Of a stretch of 40,840 nt of DNA, positions 3,856 through 40,840 are shown piece by piece. The DNA lies in the IMG/VR virus record IMGVR_UViG_3300020408_000012, positions 1-40,840 of that record; one strand, given 5' to 3'. Numbering within the stretch: position 1 is the stretch's first letter; the number at the start of each line of letters is the position of its first letter. The DNA comes from a virus. Below the pieces are notes generated by a model, which saw nothing but the letters and a program-made list of their open reading frames with translations, made no database searches and was not told the origin of the DNA. The translations under genes and the position numbers were made by a program.

Positions 3856-3861
3856 GTTGGA

Positions 3862-3884
3862 GAAAATATTCCTAGTCACAGTTC
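3862..3884. repeat. Dispersed quasi-palindrome copy (core AATATTCCTAGTCA)
   Basis: Copy of the genome-wide repeat, 35 bp before the -35 box of the early promoter and next to the terS dyad. It matches the consensus except for C at one core position. Confidence 0.6.
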
Positions 3885-3946: not shown

Positions 3947-3952
3947 TAGCAG

Positions 3953-4381
3953 TATGAAGAACAGATTTGAACAGACACGAAACAAGCGACACGATTTGTC
4001 GCTCTCTCGTGGACAGAATATGGAGGTGCAAATAACAGACTGGTAAGAATTTTGATTTGTCCGCTTGCGGTAAACATCTAGAGAAGGTGGCAAGCGTGGA
4101 GTCTCTCCTTGGCTCTCTAACTCAGGAAGGAAAACTCGCAGACAGGCAGACGAGGGAAAAGAAGGACACCTCCGACCGACAGCGAAACAAGACTAGCACT
4201 TGTTAGCACGAAACAAGATGTCGCAAAATGTAAATGATGGTCACTAACGAGTGACGATTGGATAGACATAAAGTTCTGACCTATCCGACTCTGAGATGAG
4301 AATAAAAAAACATTTATGTAAAACAAATTCCTTAAAGAAAATTTTTTGTGAGGGATGGCTCTTTGCTATCCCTCGCAATAT
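3953..4381 (+). other. Long structured 5' leader, apparently non-coding
   Basis: About 430 nt between the promoter and the first hammerhead ribozyme without a convincing gene. It is rich in hairpins: AGCGACA-cgatt-TGTCGCT (3976-3994) nested inside CACGA/TCGTG; GTCACT-aacg-AGTGAC near 4240-4255; GGATAG/CTATCC around 4259-4286; and the strong hairpin at 4348-4376. It contains a GGAGGTGCA at 4022-4030 with no start codon, and a CACCTCC (4167-4173) complementary to the block's ribosome binding sites. The same AGCGACA/TGTCGCT hairpin recurs in the small RNA at 10748. A 30-codon frame from ATG 3954 (MKNRFEQTRNK) is possible but has no ribosome binding site. Confidence 0.45.
4348..4376 (+). terminator. 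Hairpin A upstream of ribozyme 1
   Basis: GAGGGATGGC-TCTTT-GCTATCCCTC, ten pairs with one G-U, extendable by two more pairs. It ends 5 nt before ribozyme 1. There is no U-run after it, so it is better read as an RNA structural or stabilising element than a terminator. Confidence 0.55.
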
Positions 4382-4429
4382 CTGTCGCAAGGTGTGTGCC
4401 TTGCCTGAAGAAGCGAAAGCAGAAACAGA
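4381..4429 (+). ncRNA. Hammerhead ribozyme 1 (before the 38-aa gene)
   Basis: Order of elements is that of a type III hammerhead. Stem III 5' is TCTGT (4381-4385), followed by the scissile C4386. Stem I is GCAAGG/CCTTGC closing a TGTGTG loop (4387-4404). The core CTGAAGA is at 4405-4411, with a short GC-GAAA-GC stem II flanked by A residues (4412-4421). The core GAAA is at 4422-4425, and ACAGA pairs back to stem III. Predicted cleavage is after C4386. Stem II has only two pairs plus a GAAA tetraloop, the weakest of the four copies. It is followed by the box CTTTTAACTTT and an AGAGGTGCA ribosome binding site. Confidence 0.82.
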
Positions 4430-4462
4430 AACTTTTAACTTTTAATTTTGCAGAGGTGCATT

Positions 4463-4579
4463 ATGAAAAATTTCTATATCAGAAATATCAAGGGGAACAG
4501 AGATAGCAGAAAGCAATCTGTTCGTAAATTTAAAAACAGTTCTCAATACTGGGAAGCAACATCAAAGGAGGTGGTCTAG
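4463..4579 (+). CDS. Small basic protein, 38 aa, unknown
   Basis: ATG at 4463 follows AGAGGTGCATT, the conserved ribosome binding box of this block. It reads MKNFYIRNIKGNRDSRKQSV and ends at TAG 4577-4579, which overlaps the GTG of the next gene by one base, so the two are translationally coupled. It is highly basic (Lys/Arg rich) with no recognised family. Its support is the ribozyme leader and ribosome binding site shared with the other block genes. It may be a small early host-takeover protein, but that is a guess from position only. Confidence 0.6.
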   Translation: MKNFYIRNIKGNRDSRKQSVRKFKNSSQYWEATSKEVV

Positions 4580-5016
4580 TGAATAGATACACAGAAGATG
4601 GAAAGCTTAGATGGATTAGGTCAAATTATCCTGACAAGTTTTATGACAAATTCTTTTTCGATGATGATGAAAGAATATTTCTTATCAGAGAAGGAGAGTC
4701 TTTCGAGGATGCGATGACTACTCACAGAAACTTGGGTCTCAATCTGAATGGCTACAAAACTGTAGCTGGTCTCAGAAGTGCCATCACAAGATTAGTGAAT
4801 GGTGGTCACGATATTTGGGAGTGCTTTAGTTGTTTAGGTTGGAGTAGATACTTCGATGGGTGCAAGCAGACTTTCTACTACAAATTTACTGGCGAACAAA
4901 AAAATGTGAAGCTGGTTAAATTTCAAAACACAGCTATGACTTATGGAGGTCATAAGTGGTTTGAGCCTGATGTTGATACTGCGGTCTATCTGAACGAAAG
5001 TCTCTACCAAGGATAA
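4579..5016 (+). CDS. Unknown early protein, 145 aa
   Basis: GTG start at 4579 preceded by AAAGGAGGTGGT and overlapping the upstream stop (TAGTG). The sequence begins MNRYTEDGKLRWIRSNYPDK and is rich in Phe, Tyr, Asp and Gly. It has two Cys in WECFSCLGW and no signal peptide or membrane segment. I do not recognise a family. It is the last gene before hairpin B and ribozyme 2, so its mRNA would end at that ribozyme's cleavage site. The strong ribosome binding site and absence of a competing frame support it as real. Confidence 0.75.
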   Translation: MNRYTEDGKLRWIRSNYPDKFYDKFFFDDDERIFLIREGESFEDAMTTHRNLGLNLNGYKTVAGLRSAITRLVNGGHDIWECFSCLGWSRYFDGCKQTFYYKFTGEQKNVKLVKFQNTAMTYGGHKWFEPDVDTAVYLNESLYQG

Positions 5017-5023
5017 TTTTGAG

Positions 5024-5053
5024 GAGAGGGTTGAGCAATCAATCCTCTCTTTC
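5024..5053 (+). terminator. Hairpin B upstream of ribozyme 2
   Basis: Eleven-pair stem GAGAGGGTTGA / TCAATCCTCTC with a GCAA tetraloop, followed by TTTC. It is terminator-like with a weak U tail. It lies between the stop at 5016 and the ribozyme at 5058, so after cleavage it would form the 3' end of the upstream mRNA. Confidence 0.65.
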
Positions 5054-5057
5054 AAAA

Positions 5058-5113
5058 AACTGTCAGCAAGTGTGTGCTTGCTCTGATGATGGAACAAAAG
5101 TTCCGAAACAGTT
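5058..5113 (+). ncRNA. Hammerhead ribozyme 2 (before the MoxR gene)
   Basis: Stem III AACTGT (5058-5063) pairs with ACAGTT (5108-5113). Scissile C is 5064. Stem I AGCAAG/CTTGCT closes a TGTGTG loop (5065-5082). Core CTGATGA is 5083-5089, with U5090 unpaired. Stem II GGAAC-AAAA-GTTCC is 5091-5104 and core GAAA is 5105-5108. All stems are perfectly paired and differ in sequence from the other three copies, which is covariation support. Cleavage after C5064 would leave the ATPase mRNA with a 5'-OH end capped by stem I. The box CTTTTAACTTTC and GGAGGTGCA follow. Confidence 0.9.
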
Positions 5114-5144
5114 CTTTTAACTTTCACAAACTGCGGAGGTGCAA

Positions 5145-6215
5145 ATGAGTGAAGAAAATAAAATGATGGAAGCCTCTCCATCTAAAGCGTTGAGGCTAAT
5201 GAAAACTAACATTAAAGCTGGAAGAGTTCCTATGCTCTTAGGTGGTGTTGGTGTTGGTAAATCTGCAACAGTATCTCAGCTTGCTGAAGTGCTGGCTGGA
5301 GATAGAAAAGTGGTTGAGACAATTAGACCTAAGAAAGATGAATATGGATTCATCGATTTTAGAGCGAGTCTGTATGAGACCATTGAGTTGGGTGGTCTAC
5401 CTTTCATTGAGAAGGGAGAACAGAAGAGAGCATTTCTCGGAAATCTTCCAGTAGCAAATGAGGGTCTACTTTTTATTGATGAGTTCGCACAAGCGACAGC
5501 AGATATGCAGAAGCTTCTCGGACAGTTGGTCAATGAGAAAAAGTTGGGCGAGTATCACTTGCCTGAAGGCTGGGATATTGTCATGGCTGGAAACAGAGCG
5601 AGTGATAGGTCAGGTGCTAACAAGTTGCTAGCACATATGTCTGACAGAGTCTCGGTCTATCACTTCAAACATGATGTGAACGACTGGCTCGTTTGGGGTT
5701 CTGAGAATGGTGTTCATCCATCAATCTTAGGGTTTATAAATTTCATGCCTAAGTTGTTATGGAAGTTCGATGCCAAGGACAGCAATCCTCAGCCATCTCC
5801 TAGGTCATGGACAAGGTTGTCTGACATCATGAAGGCTGAGACTGACAAAGACTTGATGCCTTTTCATGCTCAAGGAAATGTCGGTATCGAGGCTGGGTTA
5901 GAGTTTATGAATTTCATTACTCTGTCTCAGGATATTCCAAACCTTGCGGACATTGTCGATGGCAAGGAGGTCGATGTTCCTGAAGGGTTGGGTCTGCAAT
6001 ATGCGACTGCTGTTGCTTTGGTCTCTGCTATTCAAGATGCAGACGATAAGTTGAAGCCTTCATACTTCGACAATGCTCTGAGATGGATGGATACTTTTCC
6101 ATCGAAAGAGTTCCCTATATTTTTCGGTAGGGCGGTTGTCGGTGCTGTTCCTGATTTGAAAAACACAAAGACTTTCTCTGTGTTCAATTCAGAAAACAAG
6201 GATGTGCTGATTTAA
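5145..6215 (+). CDS. MoxR-type AAA+ ATPase
   Basis: 356 aa from ATG 5145, 4 nt after GGAGGTGC; an in-frame GTG at 5139 would fall inside the ribosome binding site. Walker A is GGVGVGKSA at residues 33-41, Walker B LLFIDEF at 108-114, and sensor 1 MAGN at 147-150 followed by NRASDRSGANK. This is the MoxR/CoxD branch of AAA+ proteins, which act as chaperones or remodellers with a VWA-domain partner. Such a partner (7323-8864) is encoded two genes downstream with a helical protein between, a common MoxR-X-VWA arrangement. The substrate is unknown. It is distinct from replicative or CobS proteins only by context, so a CobS-like label is also possible. Confidence 0.88.
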   Translation: MSEENKMMEASPSKALRLMKTNIKAGRVPMLLGGVGVGKSATVSQLAEVLAGDRKVVETIRPKKDEYGFIDFRASLYETIELGGLPFIEKGEQKRAFLGNLPVANEGLLFIDEFAQATADMQKLLGQLVNEKKLGEYHLPEGWDIVMAGNRASDRSGANKLLAHMSDRVSVYHFKHDVNDWLVWGSENGVHPSILGFINFMPKLLWKFDAKDSNPQPSPRSWTRLSDIMKAETDKDLMPFHAQGNVGIEAGLEFMNFITLSQDIPNLADIVDGKEVDVPEGLGLQYATAVALVSAIQDADDKLKPSYFDNALRWMDTFPSKEFPIFFGRAVVGAVPDLKNTKTFSVFNSENKDVLI

Positions 6216-6220
6216 CTTGA

Positions 6221-6269
6221 GAGCGTGTGGGAGAAATATTTACCAGTAATATTTTTCCCACCTCGCTTT
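6221..6269 (+). terminator. Hairpin C upstream of ribozyme 3, built around a dispersed repeat
   Basis: Outer stem AGCG/CGCT followed by TTTT, a small internal loop, then a 13-pair stem TGGGAGAAATATT / AATATTTTTCCCA with loop TACCAGT. The upper stem and loop are one copy of the dispersed quasi-palindrome (6233-6257), so that repeat has been used in an RNA hairpin here. Terminator-like. Confidence 0.65.
6233..6257. repeat. Dispersed quasi-palindrome copy inside hairpin C
   Basis: AAATATTTACCAGTAATATT with an extra T in the left arm; the most symmetrical copy. Confidence 0.7.
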
Positions 6270-6272
6270 TGG

Positions 6273-6330
6273 AAACTGTCATCGAGTGTGGTACTCGGTC
6301 TGATGATGGAATGAAATTCCGAAACAGTTT
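6273..6330 (+). ncRNA. Hammerhead ribozyme 3 (before the 322-aa gene)
   Basis: Stem III AAACTGT (6273-6279) pairs with ACAGTTT (6324-6330), seven pairs. Scissile C is 6280. Stem I ATCGAGT/ACTCGGT (6281-6299) closes a GTGGT loop and includes one U-G pair. Core CTGATGA is 6300-6306, with U6307 unpaired. Stem II GGAAT-GAA-ATTCC is 6308-6320 and core GAAA is 6321-6324. Stem I sequence is different from the other copies yet fully paired. It is followed by TTTTAACTTTC and GGAGGTGCA. Confidence 0.9.
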
Positions 6331-6361
6331 TTTAACTTTCTTTTATTTTGCGGAGGTGCAT

Positions 6362-7330
6362 ATGAAAAAGAAAAAAATCGATACAGTCTTTGCTGATACT
6401 TTCACTAAGGTCAGATTTTATTCGTCTGCTATTAGCGGTATCAAAAAAGACAATGGTGCTACCATCGAATTGTCTGCTCTTAAAAATGCAGACTATGACT
6501 TGGTAGGTGTTAATAAAAAAATCTTTGGTCGTGACATCAACAAAGAGTTCAGACAAATTCAAAATGAATTTAGAAATAAAGTTCTCTATCCAATGACTTA
6601 TCCTTGGAGTGATGGTGGCAAGATGGGTTCTGAGTGGAGGATAGTTTCTAACGAAAAGTATGACTCCTTGATGGCTGGTTTTGATACTTACAGCAAGAAG
6701 TTTTGGTTGTTGGTCGAAAGTGTTCAGACTTCTTACGAGGACATGATTGACGAAGGCATGAAGAGACTCGGTAAGCTTGCTAACAGTAGCGACTACAAAG
6801 AGTGGGAGGACATTGAGCATAAGTTCAATTTCCAAATTACTCCTGATGTTTTTACTTCTTACAATACAAGTAATGACACGAGAGTTAATCTGTCAGAGAA
6901 GCAGAGGAAAGCGATAGAGAATTCTATTGCCTCTAACTACGAAGCTAACTTCAAGTCTTTGTTAGAAGAGGAAAAGAAAACTCTCGAAGAGTCTGTCCAA
7001 AATATCATCGATGCTCTTAAGAAAGATGGGTCAGGAAAATCTTTCTTCAAGGACAGCGTGTTCAAGAATCTGAAAGAGAAAGTTGAGAGGGTCAGAGACC
7101 TTAACAGAAACATCTATCAGAGTGCTGAGTTGGACAAGGCTATCGACATCATTGTTGGTTCGCTTGCTTCGGTCAATGACATTGACTCATTGAGAGACAA
7201 GGGAGAGATTGGTAAATCTAAAAGAGCCAAGGTCTCTGCTGACATGGAGAAAGCTAAGTCAAGCTTAAATCAAAATACGCTTGGCAAGATTTTCTCAGGT
7301 ACTGGATTATCGGAGGGCAACGATGAGTAG
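6362..7330 (+). CDS. Helical partner protein of the MoxR-VWA module, 322 aa
   Basis: ATG 6362 follows GGAGGTGCAT. The protein starts MKKKKIDTVFADTFTKVRFYS and is mostly alpha-helical, with charged coiled-coil-like segments around residues 190-260 (NFKSLLEEEKKTLEESVQN). There are no signal or membrane segments. Its position between a MoxR ATPase and a VWA protein, and its general make-up, recall the DUF3150-type proteins often found beside such pairs in phages. That name is tentative. The 3' end overlaps the VWA gene by 8 nt, so the two are coupled. Confidence 0.75.
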   Translation: MKKKKIDTVFADTFTKVRFYSSAISGIKKDNGATIELSALKNADYDLVGVNKKIFGRDINKEFRQIQNEFRNKVLYPMTYPWSDGGKMGSEWRIVSNEKYDSLMAGFDTYSKKFWLLVESVQTSYEDMIDEGMKRLGKLANSSDYKEWEDIEHKFNFQITPDVFTSYNTSNDTRVNLSEKQRKAIENSIASNYEANFKSLLEEEKKTLEESVQNIIDALKKDGSGKSFFKDSVFKNLKEKVERVRDLNRNIYQSAELDKAIDIIVGSLASVNDIDSLRDKGEIGKSKRAKVSADMEKAKSSLNQNTLGKIFSGTGLSEGNDE

Positions 7331-8864
7331 CTACGATAAATCTAAGAGGGCATTGCATGGTGTCCTCTCTGCCAATGAGGTCATGGTCAAAGCCAAAAGC
7401 AAGTTGATGAATTCCGAATCAGGTCTTGCTTCAATTCTTTTGGGTCTACCTTTGGAAGAGGACAGTTCCTTTGACACGATGGCAACAGATGGGAAGGTAA
7501 TCAAATACAATCCTGACTTTGCTCTCAGTCTGCCAATGGATGAAATCAAAGCTGTTCTAATTCATGAGGCTCTTCATGTTGTATGGGGTCATCATCTTAG
7601 AAGAGGAGACAGACATCCGAAGCTTTGGAACATTGCTACTGACTATGCAATCAATGGCTACATTGTTTATAAGCTTGGCGAAAGATTGAACAAGTTGCCT
7701 GAAGGTGCTTTGGTCTCGAACAAGTATGTCAATAAAGATTACTCGGTCATGAGTGCTAATGAAATCTACGACATATTATTTGGCGATGACGAGGCTCTCG
7801 AAGAGGCTATCGAACAAATGCAACAGCAGATGGGCGATGACTCAGACGAGAACGAAAGTCAGGGTCAGGGTCAGGATGAATCCGAAGAGGATACTCAAGG
7901 CTCAGGCTCAGGCGATGGCGATGAGGAATCCGATGAGGAATCCGAAGGTCAGGGTTCAGGCGGAGATGCAGACGATGATGCAGAAACTGGTGATGACGAA
8001 AATATTACTGGTAATGGTTTGTCCGATGAGCGTTCTCCTCAGACTAATCAATCAGGTCAAATTGATTTGAATGATTTACCTCAGATGGCTGGCGGTGTCT
8101 TTGATATGACTAACGAAGATGGCTCTGAGTTATCTGATAATGAGTTGCAAGAGCAGATAACTAAACTTGATGCTCAGGTAATGATGGCTGAAAAAGTTCA
8201 GGGTATGCTCGTCTCAGGCGGTGCTGGGGTTGATTACCTCGGAGGTCGTAAGTCTGAGTTGGTTGAGCAAGTTGTTCCTTGGGAAGATATGTTCAGAGAT
8301 ATGTTCACTAGGGTTCAATCTCAAAACAACACTTGGAAGATGCCTAATCGCAGACACATGGCTCGTGGTATCCATATGCCTAGCAAGGACACCGAACCAT
8401 CCATCAAAAATGTTGTGATGCTGGTTGATGTTTCAGGCTCGACTTATGGAGACAGAGACTCATTCGTGACTGAGGCTCTCGCTATCCTTGAGGAGTTCCA
8501 AGTCAAGAAACTCATGGTCAATAGGTATGCTGGTATCTCTCTCAGAAATGAGCAAGGAGAATACTTCGATGTCTACGATACTGACCAAGGAGATGAGATG
8601 CCTGACAAAGATGAAATCAATTTCAATGGAGATGGAGGTACTAACTTCGATGCACCTTTCAACGCTGTCGAAGAGTTCCTAGACATTGATGAGATTGATT
8701 TGATTGTTCACTTCTCGGATGGAGAGGGATACTTCAGTCAAGACCACGATGCCTTGCTTGATACTCCAATCTGTCATGTCTTTAGCTATGGTAAAGATGG
8801 CGATAACTATGGCGGTAATGAGATTGAAAAGAAAGGCTTCGGAGAAGTTATCTACATGAGTTAA
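7323..8864 (+). CDS. Metallopeptidase-like (DUF2201-type) protein with C-terminal VWA domain
   Basis: 513 aa from ATG 7323, preceded by GGAGG. The N-terminal domain has a zinc-protease-like HEALHVVWGHH (residues 81-91, HExxH plus further His), matching the predicted metal-dependent peptidase family paired with VWA domains (COG3864/DUF2201). A ~90-residue acidic, Gln/Gly/Ser-rich linker with near-repeats follows (about residues 155-250). The C-terminal VWA domain has an intact MIDAS motif DVSGS at 369-373 and a final HFSDGEGYF strand. It is the expected partner of the MoxR ATPase upstream. In known systems the pair remodels or matures a protein complex; the phage target is unknown. Whether the HExxH site is catalytic cannot be told from sequence. 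Confidence 0.85.
   Translation: MSSYDKSKRALHGVLSANEVMVKAKSKLMNSESGLASILLGLPLEEDSSFDTMATDGKVIKYNPDFALSLPMDEIKAVLIHEALHVVWGHHLRRGDRHPKLWNIATDYAINGYIVYKLGERLNKLPEGALVSNKYVNKDYSVMSANEIYDILFGDDEALEEAIEQMQQQMGDDSDENESQGQGQDESEEDTQGSGSGDGDEESDEESEGQGSGGDADDDAETGDDENITGNGLSDERSPQTNQSGQIDLNDLPQMAGGVFDMTNEDGSELSDNELQEQITKLDAQVMMAEKVQGMLVSGGAGVDYLGGRKSELVEQVVPWEDMFRDMFTRVQSQNNTWKMPNRRHMARGIHMPSKDTEPSIKNVVMLVDVSGSTYGDRDSFVTEALAILEEFQVKKLMVNRYAGISLRNEQGEYFDVYDTDQGDEMPDKDEINFNGDGGTNFDAPFNAVEEFLDIDEIDLIVHFSDGEGYFSQDHDALLDTPICHVFSYGKDGDNYGGNEIEKKGFGEVIYMS
7998..8020. repeat. Dispersed quasi-palindrome copy inside the VWA gene
   Basis: AAAATATTACTGGTAATGG, within the acidic linker codons (ENITGNG). Confidence 0.65.
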
Positions 8865-8880
8865 TCTCAATGAGCGTTCT

Positions 8881-8927
8881 GAGAGGAGGTTTTTAGGGTG
8901 GTAGTAAACCTTAGCCTCCTCTCTTTT
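8881..8927 (+). terminator. Hairpin D / intrinsic terminator after the VWA gene
   Basis: Nine-pair stem GAGAGGAGG / CCTCCTCTC around a partly paired 25-nt insert, followed by TTTT. It is placed 16 nt after the VWA stop and 40 nt before ribozyme 4. Confidence 0.65.
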
Positions 8928-8966
8928 CGCCAGCGAGAGAGCCTCTATGGAGGTCGAAATCAGGAA

Positions 8967-9048
8967 ACTGATAGGGAAAATGTGTGTTTTCCCCTGATGA
9001 CTCAATATGAGAGCGTGTAAGCGTTGGTTCAAAAGAACCGAAATCAGT
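8967..9048 (+). ncRNA. Hammerhead ribozyme 4 with insertion next to stem II
   Basis: Stem III ACTGAT (8967-8972) pairs with ATCAGT (9043-9048). The cleavage nucleotide is A8973 (GAUA, allowed by the NUH rule). Stem I GGGAAAA/TTTTCCC closes a TGTGTG loop (8974-8993). Core CTGATGA is 8994-9000. A 25-nt insert (9001-9025) containing CTC-AATAT-GAG precedes stem II GGTTC-AAAA-GAACC (9026-9039), and core GAAA is 9040-9043. Compensatory changes in all three stems relative to ribozymes 1-3 support function. The insert between core and stem II is atypical and may weaken activity or form a third junction arm. CTTTTAACTTTC and CGAGGTGCA follow. Confidence 0.78.
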
Positions 9049-9077
9049 TCCTTTTAACTTTCAAATGCGAGGTGCAT

Positions 9078-9389
9078 ATGAAAAAAATATATGAAAAGTT
9101 TTTGAGTCTTTTCAAAACTCAAAGGGTGGAAGATAAACCTTATTATCTTTCGTATGAGAATGGCGGTGTTCTTGTTCTTAAGAGACCTACCAAGCATCAG
9201 ATTGAAACCAATCTAGAATTGGCTGGGTCATCTACAAAGACAGCATTTACTGGCAGAGGTTTGCTGAGTGGCAGAAAAGCAAAGCGTGTACAGGAAAGCT
9301 TGAAGCGTAGAAACAAGTTCAAGAAACAGCTAAATCAAACTATGACTGGTAATATTTTTTCTAATCCAGTCAAACAGGGAGGTGCGTAA
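9078..9389 (+). CDS. Unknown basic protein, 103 aa
   Basis: ATG 9078 follows GAGGTGCAT and the fourth ribozyme leader. It begins MKKIYEKFLSLFKTQRVEDK, with a Lys/Arg-rich C-terminal half (GRKAKRVQESLKRRNKFKKQ). No family is recognised. The end overlaps the next start (TAATG). A copy of the dispersed palindrome lies within its 3' coding end. The shared leader architecture makes it a bona fide member of the early block. Confidence 0.75.
   Translation: MKKIYEKFLSLFKTQRVEDKPYYLSYENGGVLVLKRPTKHQIETNLELAGSSTKTAFTGRGLLSGRKAKRVQESLKRRNKFKKQLNQTMTGNIFSNPVKQGGA
9337..9361. repeat. Dispersed quasi-palindrome copy
   Basis: ACTATGACTGGTAATATTTT, coding for TMTGNIFS near the end of the 103-aa gene. Confidence 0.7.
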
Positions 9390-10607: not shown

Positions 10608-10632
10608 AAAACCATGACTGGTAAATATTTTT
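10608..10632. repeat. Dispersed quasi-palindrome copy in the control region
   Basis: ACCATGACTGGTAAATATTT, 48 bp left of the DnaA-box pair and not in a gene. Confidence 0.7.
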
Positions 10633-10679
10633 CAAACGTGCAGAAACTCTTGGGTGCAAACTAGTGGCAGAAAATTGTA

Positions 10680-10747: not shown

Positions 10748-10845
10748 ACAGCGACAGAGATTGTCGCTATTAAGAAGTGTTTTAACGACACCTCCTAAGA
10801 AAGTTAAAAGTTGAGAGAGGTAATAGACTGCCTCTCTCTTTTTTT
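10748..10845 (+). ncRNA. Compact small RNA antisense to the early-gene leaders
   Basis: A ~98-nt transcription unit with its own promoter and terminator and no credible gene. Three hairpins are visible. The first is AGCGACA-gagat-TGTCGCT (10750-10768). The second is TTTTAAC (10780-10786) pairing with GTTAAAA (10803-10809), which presents the loop GACACCTCCTAAGAAA. The third is the terminator. The loop holds CACCTCC (10789-10795), complementary to GGAGGTG, and GAAAGTTAAAAG (10799-10810), complementary to CTTTTAACTTTC. Both targets recur in order in all four ribozyme-bearing leaders (with minor differences). CACCTCCT also mimics the 16S rRNA 3' end. Likely a trans-acting translational regulator; a replication primer role is an alternative given the neighbouring DnaA boxes. 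Confidence 0.62.
10813..10845 (+). terminator. Intrinsic terminator of the small RNA
   Basis: GAGAGAGG / CCTCTCTC stem, 10-nt loop, seven T. Confidence 0.85.
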
Positions 10846-18139: not shown

Positions 18140-18408
18140 GCAGAGGACTTTACACATTTGAGCAATCTATCAATAGGATTGAAGAGATAACAGTTGAAGC
18201 TGACAGCCTTGAAGATGCTAAAAGGCAAGTAGACCTAGCTGACGATGAACAATGGGAAGTTGTCTATAGCGAAGGAGTTGATTTGGTTTGTGTCTGCACA
18301 CCAGCCATGAGAGACGAGATAGAAGATGCAGTAGTCATCGAAGAGAACGCTGACAAATATCAAGCTATCAAATCTGACAACGCAGATTTTTTCACGCAGA
18401 AATTATGA
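18136..18408 (+). CDS. Unknown small protein, 90 aa
   Basis: ATGA overlap. It begins MSRGLYTFEQSINRIEEITV and contains VEADSLEDAKRQVDLADDE. That short strand-helix module (V-x-A-xSLE-A) recurs in the 66-aa protein at 19983 (VEAESLEEAVDKLMDG), so the two may be distant paralogues. Two Cys in LVCVCTP. Function unknown. Confidence 0.7.
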   Translation: MSRGLYTFEQSINRIEEITVEADSLEDAKRQVDLADDEQWEVVYSEGVDLVCVCTPAMRDEIEDAVVIEENADKYQAIKSDNADFFTQKL

Positions 18409-18424
18409 TTGGTAATATTTTGTT
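18401..18424. repeat. Dispersed quasi-palindrome copy between genes
   Basis: AATTATGATTGGTAATATTT, filling the 16-bp gap and the end of the upstream gene. Confidence 0.65.
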
Positions 18425-20567: not shown

Positions 20568-20571
20568 CATC

Positions 20572-20594
20572 GAAAATATTACCAGTCATAGTTT
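20572..20594. repeat. Dispersed quasi-palindrome copy, intergenic (1 of 2)
   Basis: AAAATATTACCAGTCATAGT, 91 bp from the next copy in the convergent gap. Confidence 0.75.
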
Positions 20595-20662
20595 GTACTA
20601 CAAGGGTTTCAGTTTTGCTGATTTCTGGCTGTCACCTGCAACCCAGATTTTTCGGGGTTTGA

Positions 20663-20686
20663 GAAAATATTACTAGTCAATGTTTC
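20663..20686. repeat. Dispersed quasi-palindrome copy, intergenic (2 of 2)
   Basis: AAAATATTACTAGTCAATGT; same orientation as the copy at 20572. Confidence 0.75.
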
Positions 20687-40717: not shown

Positions 40718-40840
40718 CTCTTTCTGCCTTTGCTATTTTATCTTTCTGTACTAATTGTGGTACACCTAACATTGTTTTTAATAATGTATCTTGTCTTATT
40801 ATTTCATTATCTACACTTCTTACTCGGTCTATAAGTGATA
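40698..40840 (-). CDS. Unknown protein, C-terminal fragment at right edge
   Basis: Open frame entering from the right edge and ending at TAA 40698-40700, overlapping csgF by 20 nt. The visible ~46 residues include LLKTMLGVPQLVQKDKIAKA and end ERDDQRKD. Charged and helical, not recognisable. It is consistent with the gap-free overlapping style of this operon. Confidence 0.5.
   Translation of the reverse strand, partial: SLIDRVRSVDNEIIRQDTLLKTMLGVPQLVQKDKIAKAERDDQRKD

Follow-up and report, generated by a model that had tools for sequence, protein, structure and literature searches.

A series of predicted type III hammerhead ribozymes between consecutive genes of an uncultured phage

We analyzed IMG/VR virus record IMGVR_UViG_3300020408_000012 from position 1 to position 40,840, a stretch of 40,840 nucleotides (nt) that we refer to as the window, and found in it four hammerhead elements, each lying directly before an open reading frame (ORF). 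Their architecture, the covariation of their stems and the absence of G at position 17 strongly support, at the level of sequence, their assignment to the type III hammerheads. We consider it probable (roughly 0.75) that the four elements are self-cleaving and cut a polycistronic phage transcript between genes, so that a hairpin and a ribozyme together would act as a gene separator. The elements are listed below; R1 and R3 are covariance models built from relatives.

4381-4429, + strand: hammerhead copy 1; predicted cleavage after C4386; A-A at 10.1-11.1; 2-bp stem II; R1, E 8.8e-12
5058-5113, + strand: hammerhead copy 2; predicted cleavage after C5064; extra U5090, then a 5-bp stem II; R1, E 6.9e-12
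6271-6332, + strand: hammerhead copy 3; predicted cleavage after C6280; extra U6307, then a 5-bp stem II; R1, E 2.9e-9
8966-9049, + strand: hammerhead copy 4, five-helix class; predicted cleavage after A8973; R3, E 3e-13
9001-9025, + strand: two-hairpin insert (25 nt) in copy 4, after A9 and before stem II, which itself spans 9026-9039

The catalytic core of the four copies

The first-pass annotation of this DNA had described stem III, an NUH cleavage site, stem I, CUGANGA, stem II, GAA-A and stem III in hammerhead order in all four copies, and we find every one of these parts in its place. The cleavage positions that it gave (C4386, C5064, C6280 and A8973) are the same as those predicted here. 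The core nucleotides C3 U4 G5 A6 N7 G8 A9 and G12 A13 A14 occur in order in four of four copies, the A15.1-U16.1 pair is present, and position 17 is H throughout, being C, C, C and A in copies 1 to 4. A stem II is likewise present in each copy, as had been claimed, but in none of them does the canonical G10.1-C11.1 pair directly follow A9: copy 1 has A-A at this position, and copies 2 to 4 have G-C only past an insertion. The earlier account overlooked the variant nature of these cores and the separate architecture of copy 4. The G-C pair at 10.1-11.1 is quasi-conserved in hammerheads, with known exceptions. Since active exceptions such as U-U have been published (PMC3088659, cited throughout from the part of the article available to us), we treated the deviation at 10.1-11.1 as a core variant and not as grounds for exclusion.

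Detection by descriptors and covariance models

A strict descriptor recovered two of the four elements and gave no match in 50 shuffled windows. The search against Rfam hammerhead models that the first-pass annotation had proposed returned nothing in the window, either at the cut-offs or at E <= 10 (RF00008). The window copies share the topology of RF00008 (Hammerhead_3) and score below its gathering cut-off of 48.5 bits. The best score of a relative against this family is 39.4 bits (E 2e-9, among relatives with a canonical stem II), and none of the relatives tested attains 48.5 bits. Phage PaP3, used as a positive control, also gave no hammerhead at the Rfam cut-off, which is therefore too strict for this group; low RF00008 scores were used instead. 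The models built from relatives match all four copies, with E-values of 2.9e-9 to 6.9e-12 for copies 1 to 3 and 3e-13 for copy 4, all of them rough because the calibration was short. Copy 4 is matched over its full length by R3, a model that contains no sequence of its lineage. The Rfam miss is thus explained by divergence and a strict cut-off, not by absence of the element. Blastn of the window region against cultured phages gave no match, and queries with two 53-nt consensus sequences recovered no full element. It appears that current RNA family models, together with published filters, overlook an entire hammerhead subfamily.

Relatives and their distribution

Relatives were collected in two ways. 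A scan with the MoxR-like ATPase encoded in the window, which is independent of the ribozymes, yielded 14 related viral contigs, and a pattern scan for one stem II form yielded at least 120 stretches. Each of the 14 contigs found through the ATPase has one or more hammerheads, which in most cases occupy the same gene junctions; contigs at only 45-53% protein identity are among the 14. The fetched loci gave about 145 distinct elements among the matches listed, not all of them independent, as some loci come from one contig. When whole records were searched, 24 of 24 uncultured records held between one and seven elements and PaP3 held one; the records had been chosen through the motif or the ATPase, so these counts are not an unbiased prevalence. 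Two cultured pelagiphages contained no element by whole-record model search. The densest array consists of seven hammerheads within 4.6 kb (locus L128 and its 53-kb record G027, 36690-41275).

On this sequence comparison, the window copies belong to a large hammerhead family of uncultured marine phages, where "marine" rests on the nearest terminases and on a reading of the contig sets. The window terminase is nearest to those of Phage DSL-LC04, 023Pt_psg01 and Pelagibacter phages HTVC027P and HTVC023P, and the ribozyme model found no match in any of these four. Two loci (L137 and L138) have hammerhead pairs on contigs binned as Rhodobacteraceae and Gammaproteobacteria; these are probably phage contigs and give a weak host clue.

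Covariation and the catalytic signature

The first-pass annotation had read covariation from the differing stems of the four window copies. The covariation is real across relatives, which is the comparison that it had proposed, but the four copies alone do not establish it. Among 49 gap-free elements, double changes occur in 14 of 16 pairs, with 256 double changes in total as against 69 in shuffles, and RNAalifold independently predicts the same structure for these elements. Because the descriptor demands stems I and III, their paired percentages are inflated; stem II, which it does not demand, is paired in 100%. Chance similarity and plain duplication are excluded by this covariation together with conservation at orthologous junctions.

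In a relaxed scan that tolerated a single core mismatch and left positions 16.1 and 17 free, a perfect core was found in 141 of 153 candidates (in many of the scanned loci some core positions, but not 17, had been set by the seed pattern). None of these 141 has G17. Three candidates do have G17, each together with a core mismatch. The lack of G17 alongside an intact core is what the cleavage chemistry would demand, and a purely structural element would not show such a pattern. Positions in loop I (UG.G) and loop II (.AAA) are nearly invariant among the elements. Three loci (L020, L083 and L106) have another loop I with AGTA, which could pair with TACT of loop II and resembles a pseudoknot contact described in PMC3088659.

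Stem II variants and a five-helix class

The deviations at 10.1-11.1 recur among relatives. Across 144 elements, this position is U-U in 84 and G-C or G-U in 20, an extra U or A precedes a G-C-closed stem in 12, and A-A occurs in 6. In the class of copy 4, two hairpins without linkers separate A9 from stem II: the first is short and in most cases capped by a GNRA loop, and the second varies in length. A scan aimed at long inserts gave 17 distinct five-helix examples that the parser could resolve; many further pattern matches were discarded as their stems were not formed. For this class RNAalifold predicts all five helices, with double changes in 22 of 27 pairs, and the three hairpins between A9 and G12, taken by themselves, have double changes in 12 of 15 pairs. 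Stem II is mostly 5 bp after either type of insertion (13 of 17 distinct stems) and mostly 4 bp without one (9 of 11; p = 0.006).

Orthologs of the window gene at 6362-7330, whose proteins are 27-35% identical to that of the window, are preceded variously by U-U, G-C, inserted and five-helix forms, so one form seems to substitute for another at this position. We lean slightly towards the view that copy 4 is an active five-helix hammerhead whose insert, recurring before unrelated genes, alters folding or control, and that all the forms serve ribozyme-based gene separation in marine phages. To judge from the five-helix class, hammerheads may accommodate a large structured insert beside the core, which would be useful for work on ribozyme structure and for the design of controllable ribozymes.

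Layout of the ribozyme-bearing junctions

The hairpins and genes that flank the four copies are as follows.

4347-4377, + strand: hairpin immediately 5' of copy 1, read from the sequence; a general feature of the family
4463-4579, + strand: 38-amino-acid ORF after copy 1; homologs follow copy 1 in relatives too
5017-5057, + strand: hairpin between the stop codon and copy 2; 7-nt tail up to the cleavage site
5145-6215, + strand: MoxR-like AAA ATPase; phrog_1297, E 5.6e-70; Pfam AAA_5 slightly under its cut-off
6219-6270, + strand: hairpin between the stop codon and copy 3; 10-nt tail up to the cleavage site
6362-7330, + strand: protein of unknown function; orthologs with as little as 27-35% identity are likewise preceded by hammerheads
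7323-8864, + strand: putative metallopeptidase (DUF2201_N); Pfam PF13203, E 5.6e-40; no ribozyme in front
8881-8923, + strand: large hairpin past the stop codon, 5' of copy 4, read from the sequence; the leader of locus L003 folds alike
8942-8953, + strand: small hairpin between the large hairpin and copy 4, read from the sequence
9078-9389, + strand: 103-amino-acid protein of unknown function after copy 4, from sequence and profile comparison

That each copy lies between a hairpin and a start region had been noted in the first-pass annotation, and across relatives the order of stop codon, hairpin, tail, ribozyme and start proves to be both strict and common. Within 90 nt downstream of 133 of 144 distinct elements there is a ribosome-binding site with an ATG, at a median distance of 28 nt (5-95% range 20-35), as compared with 8.5% of random positions. 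On the upstream side, 94 of 105 leaders contain a hairpin of at least 6 bp, separated by about 7 nt from the preceding stop codon and by about 8.5 nt from the cleavage site that follows. When folded, the 45-nt segments that precede the ribozymes reach -13.8 kcal/mol, as against -8.8 kcal/mol after stop codons at ribozyme-free junctions (p = 3e-7). A U-tract follows the upstream hairpin in only 11 of 94 leaders; 83 of 94 have fewer than five T in the next 8 nt, and we rejected the interpretation of these hairpins as intrinsic terminators for most of them. The ribozymes of one locus always lie on one strand, with a median spacing of 1.45 kb, and the gap from stop codon to ribozyme has a median of 54 nt. 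The genes downstream of ribozymes fall into 92 clusters, the largest being the orthologs of window gene 6362-7330 and the second the MoxR ATPases, which indicates that the element is not tied to one gene.

Proposed gene separation and its alternatives

In the arrangement that we favor, each ribozyme would cut a shared polycistronic transcript between genes. The upstream message would then end in the hairpin and a tail of about 8 nt bearing a 2',3'-cyclic phosphate, the downstream message would begin with a 5'-OH and the stem I hairpin, its start codon lying about 28 nt past the ribozyme, and such a separator would need neither a new promoter nor a terminator. The processing model put forward in the first-pass annotation, with hairpin-protected 3' ends and stem I at the 5' ends, finds partial support in that it fits the strict and widely conserved layout. 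The ribozyme architecture, the covariation, the absence of G17 beside an intact core and the fixed layout are seen in the sequences themselves; intracellular cutting, protected new ends and a gain for the phage are inferred. A further point in favor is that the PaP3 element fits the model of the relatives.

Several considerations weigh against this reading. The cleavage of all four copies is a prediction, as is the structure of a shared transcript running across them. Copies 1 to 3 are off-canonical at 10.1-11.1 and copy 4 carries a 25-nt insert beside its core, either of which could slow or prevent cleavage. The gaps may contain promoters of a type outside sigma-70, and the relatives were mostly retrieved through the motif itself.

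It is also conceivable, if rather unlikely, that every ribozyme has a transcript of its own and sits close to the 5' end of it, with a promoter overlapping the upstream hairpin, and that cleavage trims this end to give uniform 5'-OH leaders. The constant distance from ribozyme to start codon would suit such trimming, as would the transcript 5' end that was mapped within 3 nt of the hammerhead site in haloviruses HF1 and HF2 (PMC3088659). So would the sequence ACYRGTAAT, the core of a 20-nt window motif described below, which occurs 15 times in the window as against 1.5 expected and is present in the hairpin before copy 3. However, the short gap between stop codon and ribozyme is mostly taken up by the hairpin, which leaves little space for a promoter, and no sigma-70-type promoter-like site is present on the + strand in the gaps before copies 2 to 4.

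A slightly less likely alternative is that cleavage is regulated by a ligand, protein or ion, with the two-hairpin insert of copy 4 as the sensor. The insert is a covarying structured domain beside the core, its class recurs in many leaders, and variant cores are often slower (PMC3088659). Yet orthologs of one gene are preceded by insert-bearing as well as insert-free classes, lineages differ in the length and sequence of the second hairpin as would not be expected of a ligand pocket, and most copies are insert-free. We regard it as improbable that the elements no longer cut and act on translation or messenger RNA stability as structured leaders. Such a loss of function would be in keeping with the failure of Rfam to recognize the window copies and with the deviations at 10.1-11.1, but it leaves unexplained the near-invariant catalytic core, the missing G17 and the match to PaP3.

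If the elements cut as predicted, many uncultured marine phages would rely on RNA catalysis, in place of promoters, terminators or host RNases, to keep their messages apart. Gene separation would then answer the question of what serial phage hammerheads are for, which was left open in 2011, and the hairpin with its ribozyme might serve as a portable gene separator.

Relation to known hammerheads

Clustered prophage hammerheads, the idea that they process long phage transcripts, cleavage of polycistronic RNA and the U10.1-U11.1 mismatch were all reported in 2011 (PMC3088659). It follows that neither serial copies nor the processing idea nor the U-U form is new, and the first-pass annotation's view of serial phage copies as new in kind is superseded by that report. 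The prophages concerned are those of Clostridium scindens, Azorhizobium caulinodans and Agrobacterium tumefaciens; their hammerheads cleave in vitro, and those of Agrobacterium also in E. coli (PMC3088659). As in those clusters, where single-gene messages were proposed, several ribozymes lie here between genes on a single phage strand: the window has four, and the richest record seven. In contrast, the prophage types and genes vary, and the available part of PMC3088659 describes neither a fixed hairpin-ribozyme-start layout nor a two-hairpin insert. The same article rejected hits that were mispaired at 10.1-11.1 unless activity had been measured, a filter that may explain why the present family was passed over. 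Our search of the open-access literature, with few subscription journals, found no earlier description of the marine subfamily, the strict layout or the five-helix form, and on marine phage hammerheads or inserted core helices it found nothing beyond PMC3088659 and PMC10085705.

HF1 and HF2 have a hammerhead (HHphage) just before an early helicase gene, and it resembles the window copies in its place ahead of a phage gene, 13 nt from the start codon (PMC3088659). It differs from them in that its insertion is near C3 and stem I and not between A9 and stem II, and a single copy is described in the part of the article available. The PaP3 hammerhead is listed among the active variants in PMC3088659, and the RNA whose activity was tested there is presumably the element found here, which is the sole model match in PaP3 (AY078382, 45469-45417, minus strand) and lies directly before an ORF. 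Like the relatives, it is of type III, with a UGUGUG loop I, U-U at 10.1-11.1 as in most of them, and a stem II loop UAAA; it differs from the window copies in occurring only once per genome, and we saw no close protein relation between PaP3 and the window. By blastn, the region of the PaP3 element is present in 71 Pseudomonas phages.

The chrysanthemum chlorotic mottle viroid hammerhead has an extra nucleotide between A9 and 10.1, as do copies 2 and 3; unlike copy 4, it has only this single extra nucleotide and nothing resembling the two-hairpin insert. An extra core nucleotide in this viroid hammerhead, known to us from a title cited in PMC6155905, is a precedent for such variants.

Other features of the window

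About 400 nt 5' of copy 1 (3950-4346) are without an assigned gene and contain many short inverted repeats and, at 4022, a sequence resembling a ribosome-binding site, GGAGGTGCA. A cut at copy 1 would leave this segment with a hairpin at its 3' end, so it may be a stable RNA. For the gene at 7323-8864, the PHROG family name is HNH endonuclease and the Pfam assignment is the putative metallopeptidase DUF2201_N; the PHROG label looks wrong. The leader spacer CTTTTAACTTT, followed by GGAGGTG, which resembles a ribosome-binding site, recurs at 10800-10815 on the - strand, where there is no ribozyme.

The 20-nt motif ATGACTRGTAATATTTTTTC, allowing up to three mismatches, occurs six times in the window as against 0.03 expected. 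A derivation of its core, ACYRGTAAT, from a repeated C-terminal peptide was rejected, as the matches were weak. Judged from its sequence, the motif may be a phage promoter or a protein-binding site. Its occurrences are as follows.

3860-3879, - strand: ATGACTRGTAATATTTTTTC motif
9342-9361, + strand: ATGACTRGTAATATTTTTTC motif
10614-10633, + strand: ATGACTRGTAATATTTTTTC motif
18405-18424, + strand: ATGACTRGTAATATTTTTTC motif
20570-20589, - strand: ATGACTRGTAATATTTTTTC motif
20661-20680, - strand: ATGACTRGTAATATTTTTTC motif

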